Source of the DNA: Bacteroidales bacterium
GTDB taxonomy: Bacteria; Bacteroidota; Bacteroidia; Bacteroidales; UBA932
DNA length: 28,193 nucleotides
Reading direction: 5' to 3'
NCBI GenBank assembly: GCA_024689525.1
Contig: JAILDI010000054.1
Coordinates: 1-28,193 of the forward strand
This document shows, in pieces, positions 24,265 through 27,179 of this stretch. A program made the translations under genes and the position numbers. The stretch's first letter is position 1, and each line of letters starts with the position of its first letter. The notes beneath the pieces were generated by a model. The model ran no database searches. It was not told the DNA's origin and was given only the letters and a program-made list of their open reading frames with translations.

Positions 24265-24303
24265 ACCGCTGCAGCGATCCCATTTATTAACAACTGCTTA
24301 CAA

Positions 24304-24337
24304 AAAGTCCTCTGGCTCAAACGCACCAGAGGACTTT
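24304..24337. terminator. Bidirectional hairpin, left edge of the AT-rich region
   Basis: AAAGTCCTCTGG (24304-24315) pairs perfectly with CCAGAGGACTTT (24326-24337) around a 10-base loop. It ends the serine operon on plus and the 216-aa lipoprotein gene on minus. The same stem recurs at 27146-27177. Confidence 0.85.
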
Positions 24338-24344
24338 GCATAAA

Positions 24345-24594
24345 GGTATTCCGCCTCCCGATCAATAATCATTTCCCGGAAAGCAAATTCTTTAGTGGGA
24401 AAGAGGATCATAATCGTCTGTCAAATCAAACAATCCGTCCTTAACGGAGAATGGGTGAACCACCCCAAGGGAATCAGTATACTGTCCCGTCATCGTAAAA
24501 TTACCGGCAAGAATACGCTCCTCAGGTGACCATTTGCGAATGCGTATTTTTGTCTCCGAAACATCGACAAGTTGGTATTCCGCCTCCCGATCAA
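24345..24594. repeat. Pair of 21-bp direct repeats
   Basis: A 21-base sequence beginning GGTATTCCGCC occurs identically at 24345-24365, beyond the lipoprotein gene stop, and at 24574-24594 inside that gene, where it encodes DREAEY on the minus strand. One mismatch and three further matching bases follow in both. The spacing is 229 bases. Confidence 0.9.
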
Positions 24595-25042
24595 CAATAT
24601 GCGGTATAATACCACCATTAGCATCTCCTATTCTTTCGCCCATATGCGAAATTGCTGGTAATAATAGATACCAGAACTCGGTTTCGACATCATTGAACTC
24701 GGCATCAGACTCAAGTAAATCAGAGGAAAAAGTAAAAGAAATCTCAGGAAACGGCATGGTACTAACGTAGTAACCATTCGATATTAAACTGGCATTAATT
24801 ATGGCAATCGAAGTCTCATCATCAATACTATACTTTGCAAATCGATGAATAGGGTAGATGAATCCGCCAGAGGTTTGTTGATTCACTTTTATATTATCAA
24901 TAGTAAAAGAAAGGGTACCCTTCCCCTCGGCAGTTTTTTTATTAAAATAATAATCACTACGCGAAACGTCGTAATCAGAAAAGTCGAAATCACAGGAAGT
25001 TGTGAGGATGATAATACCAACAATATACAAATACCTTTTCAT
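24392..25042 (-). CDS. Lipoprotein of unknown function, 216 aa
   Basis: A hydrophobic signal (YLYIVGIIILTTSC) gives a lipobox with Cys17, so the mature protein is lipid-anchored in the envelope. After the cysteine comes an acidic segment (DFDFSDYDVSRSDYY). A beta-rich body follows with SFTIDNIKVNQQ, FTFSSDLLESD and FTMTGQYTDSLGVVHPFSV, the last typical of Bacteroidota adhesin-like or immunoglobulin-like lipoproteins. I do not recognise a family. Base composition and codon use are more AT-rich than in the neighbouring serine operon. It lies 90 bases downstream of the small exported peptide gene on the same strand and has its own -7 box, so the two may be expressed together or separately. Confidence 0.85.
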   Translation of the reverse strand: MKRYLYIVGIIILTTSCDFDFSDYDVSRSDYYFNKKTAEGKGTLSFTIDNIKVNQQTSGGFIYPIHRFAKYSIDDETSIAIINASLISNGYYVSTMPFPEISFTFSSDLLESDAEFNDVETEFWYLLLPAISHMGERIGDANGGIIPHIVDREAEYQLVDVSETKIRIRKWSPEERILAGNFTMTGQYTDSLGVVHPFSVKDGLFDLTDDYDPLSH

Positions 25043-25071
25043 ACATTAATCTCTATCATTAGTGTCCACTG

Positions 25072-25079
25072 CAAAAATA
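25072..25079 (-). promoter_or_regulatory. -7 element of the 216-aa lipoprotein gene
   Basis: TATTTTTG on the minus strand matches TAnnTTTG exactly and would start transcription near 25065, 23 bases before the ATG. No TTTG is visible at -33. Confidence 0.5.
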
Positions 25080-25132
25080 GTAAAATCTATTCATTATTTA
25101 TCATCTACTTACTTTATTATTCATTCGCGCCG

Positions 25133-25273
25133 TCAATCATCTCCATTTGGCCGAGGAGTAATCACTATCGTCGTATCACCATCAGTCCATGTTTTGGAGA
25201 ATACTGTTGAAAAGGGTGCGCAGACGATTATCATCATGCAAATAATTATCTGCAGGTGTTTTGTCGTTTTCAT
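25133..25273 (-). CDS. Small exported peptide, 46 aa
   Basis: Read on the minus strand from the ATG at 25273, the frame gives a basic start (MKTTKHLQ), a hydrophobic core (IIICMMIIVCAPFSTVF) and a likely signal peptidase site near SKTW. A mature peptide of about 20 residues remains, rich in Thr, Asp and Pro and ending PRPNGDD. An exact TATATTTG box lies 24 bases before the ATG, which is the spacing seen at the other genes here and strongly supports a real gene. It is too short for usual gene calling. The divergent neighbour is a membrane TPR-HTH regulator. A role as a secreted signal or toxin-like peptide is possible but unproven; I recognise no homologue. Confidence 0.65.
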   Translation of the reverse strand: MKTTKHLQIIICMMIIVCAPFSTVFSKTWTDGDTTIVITPRPNGDD

Positions 25274-25296
25274 ATATCATACTGTATTTATCGCTA

Positions 25297-25304
25297 CAAA
25301 TATA
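25297..25304 (-). promoter_or_regulatory. -7 element of the small peptide gene
   Basis: TATATTTG on the minus strand is an exact consensus match with a predicted start near 25290 and a leader of about 17 bases. Its -33 region (around 25325) lies inside overlapping inverted repeats. Confidence 0.65.
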
Positions 25305-25310
25305 GAACAC

Positions 25311-25356
25311 ATTCTTTTCTATTCATAAAGAATAGCATAACATTTTCAAATGCTAT
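25311..25356. promoter_or_regulatory. Cluster of overlapping inverted repeats, candidate operator
   Basis: Three perfect inverted repeats overlap between the divergent promoters: ATTCTTT/AAAGAAT (25311-25317 and 25327-25333), CTATTC/GAATAG (25319-25324 and 25330-25335) and ATAGCAT/ATGCTAT (25332-25338 and 25350-25356). They cover the -33 region of the peptide promoter and could bind a dimeric regulator. AT-rich DNA gives such repeats by chance fairly often. Confidence 0.45.
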
Positions 25357-25434
25357 ATTGTTGATATTTAGATAGTTGGACATTTGCCGCATAACATTTT
25401 ACGTTTCGGAGCACAAATAACGGAGAATATTCTC

Positions 25435-25442
25435 TATATTTG
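25435..25442 (+). promoter_or_regulatory. -7 element of the TPR regulator gene
   Basis: TATATTTG is an exact consensus match 20 bases before the ATG at 25463; transcription would start near 25449. A TTTCG at 25404 is the nearest -33 candidate but lies somewhat too far upstream. Confidence 0.6.
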
Positions 25443-25462
25443 AACGGAGACAGTTTTTCTTC

Positions 25463-27118
25463 ATGAGGAAATTATTATTACTTTCAGTTATAATCGCTTT
25501 GGCATACTCTTGCCAACGACTGGAGACTCGAAGAGCCCTAGATAGAGCCTCAAATCTATTATATGAAAGGCCTGACAGTTCACTTGCAGTTTTGGAAAGC
25601 ATCAGAATCGATGGTATACCTTGCAAGAAAGACCGGGCAAGGTATGCCTTGTTGAAGAGCGCCGCCTTTGACAAGAATTATATTGATATCTGCTCGGACT
25701 CTCTTATTGGAATAGCAGTAGATTATTATGCCGGACACCAGGGCAAAGATAAACAGGCAATGGGGGCTTTTTATTATAAAGGGATTGTCCTAAAGAATGC
25801 CGGATCTTACGAAATGGCCATCGTATCGTTTGAAAAAGCAGAAAGGATTGCCGAGTCGATTGGCGACAATTATCATTTGGGGCTCATTAACCGGAATAAA
25901 TCCGAGATTTTCAATAGCTGTAATAACATCAAAGAAGCCATCGTGCTTGAAAAGAAGGCTATTGAGTATTTTGATAAAGCTAACGCTCAAATTTATTCTC
26001 TTTACGCAAAACGCGGTCTGGCGGTTCTCTACAATAATGATAAACAATACCTGGCAGCGGCGGCCGTATTGGATTCTATTGAATTATACAGTCCTGATTT
26101 GTCTTTTTCATATAAATGCCGATTATTAAGGGCAGAAGGCATAATTGCAAAAAATAAAAATCTCAGAGAAGCAATCTTATTATATCTTTCAGTCCCGGAA
26201 GAGTATTATTTTATTACTGATTACGGACATCTTGCATTAGCATATGAACGAATTGGCCAAAGAGATTCTTCCGACCTCATGATAAACCAAGCCTACCATA
26301 ACGCCAGAAATGAACTAGACTCTGCAACTGTTGATTTTATGCATGCCCATATCGTTGTAAACCGTAAAGACTATGAAACGGCTCACGATCTGGTATTCCA
26401 CGCAGCACTTGTCCAGGATTCATTAACTAGAGTATTACTGACGCAATCGATAAACAATGCTCAACGCGACTTCTACAGACAGGAGGTCCAATTACAGGAA
26501 TTATTTGCAAAACAGAAGCAGAGGAACGGCTTTTTAATTATTATGATTGTGATTCTCACATCATCATTAATAATTGTAACCCAATTAAGCAGAAATCGGA
26601 AGAAAGATGTTGTAATACGAGAACAAATGGCGCAGCTGACTCTTAAGAGCGGAGCATTATCTGAAACGATTAAGCAGAATGCCATTCTGACGTCATCCTT
26701 ATTCAACGAGAAGTATTTCCATCTCGAAAAAATATCTTCAGACTTCTATTCATGCACAAATGAAACGGAAAGGGAACAGCTCCTTCTCGAATTTAAACGT
26801 CAATGTGCCAGCTTTAAAGATAACCAACAACTATTTTCTGATTTAGAAATACTCTTAAACAAGAGTTGTAATAATGTGATGCAAAAGATTAGAGAGCAAG
26901 TTCCTTCAATAAAAGGAAAGAACCTCTCCATTCTCTCATTGTTCTTCTCCGGAATGCCCTATGAAATCATACAAATCCTTATCGGTAGCCAATCTGTTTT
27001 TGCCTTGAGGACAGCTAAGACTAGATTCAAAAAAATCATTCTGGCATCAAATGCAAAAGACAAGGAGCTCTTTCTTTCTTTGCTATCAACAAACCAATCT
27101 ATAAAAGACAATATATAA
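25463..27118 (+). CDS. TPR membrane regulator with C-terminal HTH, 551 aa
   Basis: The N-terminus is a signal sequence with a possible lipobox cysteine at residue 17 (LAYSC). Residues 30-340 form degenerate TPR helices (AMGAFYYKGIVLKNAGSYEMAIVSFEKAERIAES is the clearest). A single membrane segment follows near residues 355-375 (FLIIMIVILTSSLIIV), then a basic stop-transfer and a coiled-coil stretch. The end (NLSILSLFFSGMPYEIIQILIGSQ, then ALRTAKTRFKKIIL) resembles a LuxR-like HTH. This is the known Bacteroidota plan of a periplasmic TPR sensor joined through the membrane to a DNA-binding domain. The ligand is unknown. It is transcribed away from the small exported peptide gene, making that peptide a candidate ligand or target. 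The gene is AT-rich. Confidence 0.85.
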   Translation: MRKLLLLSVIIALAYSCQRLETRRALDRASNLLYERPDSSLAVLESIRIDGIPCKKDRARYALLKSAAFDKNYIDICSDSLIGIAVDYYAGHQGKDKQAMGAFYYKGIVLKNAGSYEMAIVSFEKAERIAESIGDNYHLGLINRNKSEIFNSCNNIKEAIVLEKKAIEYFDKANAQIYSLYAKRGLAVLYNNDKQYLAAAAVLDSIELYSPDLSFSYKCRLLRAEGIIAKNKNLREAILLYLSVPEEYYFITDYGHLALAYERIGQRDSSDLMINQAYHNARNELDSATVDFMHAHIVVNRKDYETAHDLVFHAALVQDSLTRVLLTQSINNAQRDFYRQEVQLQELFAKQKQRNGFLIIMIVILTSSLIIVTQLSRNRKKDVVIREQMAQLTLKSGALSETIKQNAILTSSLFNEKYFHLEKISSDFYSCTNETEREQLLLEFKRQCASFKDNQQLFSDLEILLNKSCNNVMQKIREQVPSIKGKNLSILSLFFSGMPYEIIQILIGSQSVFALRTAKTRFKKIILASNAKDKELFLSLLSTNQSIKDNI

Positions 27119-27145
27119 CACGGCTGACTATAAGCCATTTACAGT

Positions 27146-27179
27146 AAGTCCTCTGGTGCATTTACACCAGAGGACTTTT
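27146..27179. terminator. Bidirectional hairpin, right edge of the AT-rich region
   Basis: A perfect 13-bp stem, AAGTCCTCTGGTG (27146-27158) with CACCAGAGGACTT (27165-27177), has a six-base loop and a TTTT end. It lies between the converging regulator and ROK kinase genes. The 11-bp core equals that of the hairpin at 24304-24337. Confidence 0.85.

Follow-up and report, generated by a model that had tools for sequence, protein, structure and literature searches.

A Bacteroidales cassette with a TPR membrane protein, a small exported partner and a conserved intergenic repeat element: a putative regulatory circuit

Introduction

Among the closest described counterparts of the locus considered here is the BT_3442/BT_3441 and MACPF cluster of Bacteroides thetaiotaomicron. 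In the available part of its description (PMC2954219), a TPR protein has a small Ig-fold protein and lipoprotein cargo for neighbours, as in the cassette to which the locus belongs; unlike in the circuit proposed below, no regulatory role is put forward for BT_3442 and no operator is described in that part of the text. The regulator studied here is encoded in a window of 28,193 nt (the whole stretch of DNA that was analysed: contig JAILDI010000054.1 of assembly GCA_024689525.1, from a Bacteroidales bacterium of the UBA932 lineage). It matches the BT3442 model (NF053779) over residues 4–392 with an E value of 2.4e-7, but since its score is 29.9 bits against a cut-off of 940, it stands outside the BT3442 family. 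The same model is matched at E ≤ 0.001 by 22 of 33 regulator homologues.

Further likenesses are found in the Bacteroides C10 protease, or Bfi-Bti, operons, where a small exported beta-rich protein lies beside a C10 protease (PMC3462683 and PMC2873492, in their available parts). The same holds in five relatives of the present block; no protease is encoded in the block itself, in contrast to these operons. The main text of PMC2873492 as available does not contain the words regulator, tetratricopeptide or TPR. BT2221 has been named BtiZ and described as a staphostatin-like inhibitor (PMC3462683, available part), and is counted among the DUF3244 proteins (PMC10434189, likewise in part). Exported partners of the regulator in related genomes match DUF3244 (PF11589, Pfam) in 7 of 21 cases at E ≤ 0.01, and the partner profile finds the PDB entry 3sd2 at E 4.3e-5; the 46-aa open reading frame (ORF) of the window has only the part that precedes this domain.

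RRNPP peptide sensors such as Rap and NprR are cytoplasmic, and their helix-turn-helix (HTH), if there is one, is N-terminal. The window regulator differs in having a lipobox cysteine, a transmembrane (TM) segment and a putative HTH at its C-terminus (table 1); it may work by analogy with the RRNPP group, of which it is not a member. No circuit of the kind outlined here was found in the available parts of the literature on DUF3244, BT3442, BVU_0276 and TPR membrane regulators of Bacteroidetes. Likewise, neither the repeat element nor the minimal partner was found in the available literature on DUF3244 and TPR regulators, and the direct-repeat element with its fixed promoter spacing appears to be new.

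The circuit that we propose, and to which we give a somewhat better than even chance, is one in which the direct repeats allow the regulator to turn on the exported operon, while the TPR domain of the regulator reads the exported product.

Composition and setting of the block

The block has a GC content of 0.380 (38%), against 0.566 (57%) in the remaining window, and third-position GC is 0.36–0.40 in its genes against 0.73–0.76 in the serA, DUF1015 and ROK genes. The two hairpins that bound it are near copies of each other, 79% identical over 48 nt. Inside lie the 46-aa exported ORF and a lipoprotein gene on one strand and the TPR-transmembrane regulator on the other (table 1). The initial annotation had described an AT-rich accessory module between matching hairpins, with shifted codon use and this gene content, and it is borne out on each point; the block is also not conserved in all relatives, being carried by none of 12 in the stretches downstream of DUF1015.

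Table 1. Features of the block, with positions in the window.
Feature	Position	Strand	Remarks
Left hairpin, terminator-like	24304..24337		between DUF1015 gene and lipoprotein gene; TTTTT after it on the − strand
Lipoprotein (cargo), 216 aa	24392..25042	−	weak match to NCBIfam Riean_0653 (27 bits, cut-off 57)
Exported ORF, 46 aa	25133..25273	−	signal peptide (by eye) and tail TWTDGDTTIVITPRPNGDD; resembles only the N-terminus of relatives' DUF3244-type partners
Putative −7 box of exported gene, TATATTTG	25297..25304	−	its TTTG at 41 bp from repeat 2, a spacing shared by 17 further loci
Direct repeat 2, GCATAACATTTT (AAAATGTTATGC on exported strand)	25335..25346	+	nearer exported gene
Central element, ATATCAAC	25360..25367	−	between the repeats; ATnATCA in many relatives
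Direct repeat 1, GCATAACATTTT	25389..25400	+	54 bp from repeat 2
Putative −7 box of regulator gene, TATATTTG	25435..25442	+	
Regulator, 551 aa	25463..27118	+	lipobox Cys17; TPR superhelix ~18–322; TM 357–375; putative C-terminal GerE-like HTH ~486–528, weak
Right hairpin	27146..27179		near copy of left hairpin; between regulator and ROK kinase gene

The chromosomal site can be recognised in related genomes. At the set threshold, the DUF1015 protein is encoded in 337 of 398 genomes of the family of genome G008, and serC and serA adjoin it as in the window in nine of the 12 relatives examined downstream. No regulator match above 30% identity, the level above which matches were reported, lies beside DUF1015 (≤1.5 kb on each side) in the best 30 genomes. 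One of the 12 (G787) has a distant regulator, of 27% identity, about 10 kb past DUF1015. The ROK gene is present in 28 of the 30 genomes, and in G643 and G649 it is less than 1 kb away from DUF1015. The DUF1015–ROK gap of G643 (about 110 bp) contains a single hairpin with the same core as in the window, TCCTCTG...CAGAGGA; in the 1.37 Mb of locus sequence this core was found at no other place (L126 and L150 being the same place). The window has two copies, one on either side of the block. We infer that the cassette may have entered at a terminator common to both genomes, which was doubled in the process. A single recent import, as argued from AT content, is weakened, since low GC is common to the whole family. 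Regarding a phage or plasmid origin, matches were only distant (three phage and nine plasmid records, below 60% identity), and among viral contigs none of the 222 stretches that fit a pattern encodes a relative.

The lipoprotein has three homologues, which are 62–73% identical in alignment, and its structure model is poor (pLDDT 40). As a TATTTTTG box lies 37 bp ahead of its start (one is also present in 422 of 5000 shuffles), the 46-aa peptide and the lipoprotein may be transcribed apart.

The regulator protein

The nearest relatives of the regulator (P0002–P0008) are 55–70% identical to it, and the genomes searched contain no match above 42% identity. Its TPR fold is modelled with a pLDDT of 85.5, and a fold search with about residues 9–326 has the peptide-binding TPR proteins LGN, RapI and NprR among its matches, together with many unrelated TPR proteins. 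The regulator probably spans the inner membrane.

Support for the C-terminal HTH is weak. Using hhalign, a GerE alignment built from eight of 29 fetched loci matches this domain with a P value of 2.2e-4 over 47 columns for alignment A3 and of 0.05–0.1 for alignment A1; other parts of the regulator give 0.029 or worse. No Pfam HTH model matches the protein, and nothing convincing came from a PDB profile search. Action of an HTH on the shared intergenic region, as first annotated, is compatible with the conserved element found there.

The cassette across Bacteroidales

The neighbourhood of the regulator was compared in 79 loci from the top 80 of 358 relatives, scanned by the regulator alone, and in five further stretches. 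Two loci in which the regulator ORF was not found (L045, L075) and three with identical regulators (L018, L072, L153) were dropped, and the short-flank loci L080–L109 were also left out of the neighbour count, giving 79 different regulators (27 close and 52 distant). A DUF3244-type exported ORF lies within 1.5 kb of the regulator in 48 of the 79 (18 of 27 close and 30 of 52 distant); a later-found locus, L005, is the forty-ninth such case and the nineteenth close one. The remaining 31 of the 79 have no such neighbour, and some of these loci end at contig ends. Beyond 1.5 kb, a single DUF3244-type match was found in 962 kb of regulator loci, and there was none in 42 control loci (261 kb), which are housekeeping stretches of unmatched composition, one of them (L151) with a distant regulator at its end. 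The exported ORF is divergent from the regulator in 17 of 18 close loci, while in 25 of 30 distant ones it follows the regulator downstream and shares its strand.

The usual partner is an exported DUF3244-type (Ig-like) protein of about 130 aa. Regulator homologues do not consistently lack an exported neighbour, and on that count the initial idea of a sensed peptide was not refuted; the typical partner is a protein of this kind, and not a peptide. Judged from sequence, the window block is a member of a widespread Bacteroidales cassette made up of a lipid-anchored TPR regulator that probably spans the membrane, a small exported partner and, often, secreted or surface cargo. Seven of the 18 close loci have a C10 protease or an RHS-type protein as cargo, and several others have cargo without a Pfam match. 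Where close loci lack a DUF3244-type partner, the same side is occupied in L001 by a serpin, in L152 by a DUF4249 lipoprotein, and in L011, L015 and L017 by other proteins whose start, judged by eye, resembles a lipobox.

The nature of this cargo bears on an alternative that has a real, though less than even, prospect of being correct, namely that what the regulator senses is a different signal (cargo that is misfolded or unexported, or a cell-wall or host signal) and that the exported protein is output only, acting as a protease inhibitor or cargo chaperone, the kind of role put forward for the Bacteroides C10 protease inhibitors. The gene after the exported partner encodes a C10 protease with an I69 pro-domain in five close loci (L003, L006, L007, L019, L022), and BtiZ, as noted above, joins the staphostatin-like and DUF3244 descriptions in one protein. 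Against this, exported proteins of this kind are also found ahead of RHS-type proteins, in L004 and L012, and the window retains a tail without the inhibitor-like domain.

The 46-aa exported ORF

Compared with a profile of 16 close partners, the 46-aa ORF ranks first of the 317 window ORFs of at least 25 aa, with 19.8 bits (E 1e-5); the next ORF scores 5.4 bits. None of 217 unrelated exported N-termini reaches 19.8 bits against the whole N-terminal profile (best 17.6, next 8.2), a score that in the 46-aa ORF is partly due to the signal peptide. With a profile of the mature tail only, the ORF scores 13.4 bits and the 217 unrelated N-termini score at most 2.4; the tail match spans about 12 residues, and its best single stretch, TDGDTTIVITPRP, gives 11.1 bits. 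Only positions 1–43 of the seed profile align to the ORF, and since the solved DUF3244 domain (3sd2) aligns from position 48 onward, the window ORF keeps what precedes the domain. The Ig-like domain is not in the ORF, and no remnant of it was found within 24265–25470 or after the stop codon. The 46-aa form is a stripped-down variant of the DUF3244-type partner. A short exported ORF also fills this slot in two further close relatives, one of 34 aa that precedes a lipoprotein (L154) and one of 31 aa that overlaps a 251-aa ORF on the opposite strand (L010); neither is among the best tail matches or has the tail motif.

A different explanation, which we regard as somewhat unlikely, is that the ORF is a decayed DUF3244 gene whose Ig-like domain has been deleted, leaving a functionless peptide alongside a regulator, element and lipoprotein that still work. 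The full protein is present in most close relatives (18/27), the tail resemblance is short, and in a large protein search nothing had three words in common with the 46-aa sequence, all of which speaks for decay; but there is no damage to the promoter box, repeat spacing, start position, signal peptide or tail motif, the surroundings hold no domain remnant, and the slot is filled by a short exported ORF at two other loci, albeit in both cases without the tail motif.

The intergenic element

The region between the divergent genes contains two direct repeats and a central element (table 1). On the exported strand, a pair of TGTWAY motifs 54–56 bp apart occurs in 20 of 26 close upstream regions, against a mean of 0.07 and a maximum of one in shuffles and two on the opposite strand; L023 was left out because its sequence is lacking. 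In the window, AAAATGTTATGC occurs twice at 54 bp, which is reached by 92 of 20,000 shuffles. The element is mainly one of a single clade, since the regular expression did not find the pair in 49 of 51 distant upstream regions or in any of 51 distant downstream regions; L186, a distant locus outside this set of 51, has the element.

A matrix of the repeats, trained on 12 loci chosen by motif and spacing, gave p values of 0.005 for the window, 0.005 for L004 and 0.010 for L022, none of which had been used for training; the values were 0.035 for L009, 0.055 for L155 and 0.085 for L035, and L008, L031 and L039 were not significant. The regular-expression and shuffle counts are independent of the matrix, with the qualification that motif and spacing were first noticed in the same loci. 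Across 12 genomes, the three-part pattern has 14 matches, of which eight are upstream of DUF3244-type genes, two beside regulators with other neighbours and four elsewhere; a reversed control pattern has seven.

The −7 box of Bacteroidetes promoters has the consensus TAnnTTTG. Among the 24 loci with the pair, the window included, 18 have a TTTG that starts exactly 41 bp from the G of repeat 2, and 19 have one at 40–42 bp (one at 42), compared with 3.7% for this three-offset slot at random places in the same regions. The 24 loci are the 20 found by regular expression, the window, and L004, L014 and L022, in which the first base has to be relaxed for the repeat pair to be found or the pair is more distant. 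TTTG is missing at 40–42 bp in L002, L010, L012, L013 and L154; two of these, L010 and L154, are the loci with the short ORFs described above. Four close loci without a DUF3244-type partner (L011, L015, L017, L152) nevertheless have the same 41-bp arrangement. From repeat 2 to the exported start codon, the distance is 68 bp in the window and 67–77 bp in 13 of 15 loci (84 and 123 bp in the others), with the starts of four genes shifted to the signal-peptide methionine. From repeat 1 to the regulator start, it ranges from 11 to 67 bp in 14 loci, leaving out L014 (342 bp).

Activation of the exported gene fits this geometry better than repression of both divergent genes, given the fixed 41 bp at repeat 2 and the varying distance from repeat 1 to the regulator, and the spacing strengthens the case that the exported operon would be activated through the repeats. 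Repression of both divergent genes from the shared region, with feedback, is improbable: the repeats do sit between two divergent promoter boxes, but repeat 2 lies upstream of the exported box at its fixed distance (18/24) and repeat 1 keeps no fixed distance from the regulator start.

The proposed circuit and its meaning

Sequence comparison establishes that regulator and exported partner are paired, that the repeat element keeps fixed distances from TTTG and start codon, and that the 46-aa ORF is similar to the partner N-terminus. In the activating circuit that we favour, the cytoplasmic C-terminus of the regulator would bind both repeats, which lie close to the promoter of the exported operon; the bound regulator would activate that operon, as the comparative data suggest. 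Gene pairing, topology and fold are consistent with an exported partner that signals back by docking in the periplasmic TPR groove; if it does so, output would track how much partner is exported or free of cargo. In the window version, the partner would have shrunk to a signal peptide and tail, with the lipoprotein as cargo. A further step, which we consider rather doubtful, is that the N-terminal tail of the partner (D-G-x-x-I-x-I-x-x-x-P) is itself the ligand of the TPR groove, the window being a natural minimal system.

In gut Bacteroidales, little is known of what the DUF3244 and TPR proteins do that lie beside C10 proteases, MACPF proteins and other secreted proteins. The conserved DNA element, taken with a regulator whose chain probably crosses the inner membrane, offers a testable answer to how such cargo may be controlled, and the 46-aa form may reveal which part of the exported partner matters. 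Were the tail the ligand, the cassette would constitute a trans-envelope peptide-signalling circuit in Bacteroidales, one that makes the expression of cargo such as secreted proteases, RHS proteins and lipoproteins depend on the export of its companion.

The three-part element and its neighbours in relatives

The direct-repeat element is independent of the kind of partner encoded beside the regulator, because its direct repeats and the 41-bp spacing to the TTTG promoter-box core are retained at four close loci that lack a DUF3244 partner (L011, L015, L017 and L152). The regulator at L017 is identical to that at L018; one lies on a contig labelled Lachnospiraceae and the other comes from a Bacteroidales bin, so the former contig is probably mis-binned. 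In three further relatives (L228, L229 and L230), DUF3244 was matched weakly within 889-aa open frames.

Additional copies of the three-part element also occur. At L192, a second copy lies directly downstream of a regulator, ahead of an ORF in which a signal peptide may lie internally (~84 aa) and of a gene judged TIR-like on visual inspection. In another genome (L194), a comparable copy is followed only by short ORFs. In relative genome G649, the gap between the DUF1015 and ROK genes spans 676 bp (L149, 4878-5554) and, by eye, seemingly contains other inverted repeats.

Sequences flanking the lipoprotein gene

Through a 25-nt repeat (96% identity), the stretch encoding DREAEY in the lipoprotein recurs beyond its stop codon, adjoining the left hairpin. 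This second copy may be what remains of the 3′ end of a different lipoprotein gene, or else the scar of a recombination event. Upstream, the TATTTTTG box may act as a promoter of its own for the lipoprotein gene.

Features around the lipoprotein gene
Feature	Position	Strand	Remark
25-nt repeat, copy	24345-24369		
25-nt repeat, copy	24574-24598		
TATTTTTG box	25072-25079	-	37 bp ahead of lipoprotein start codon
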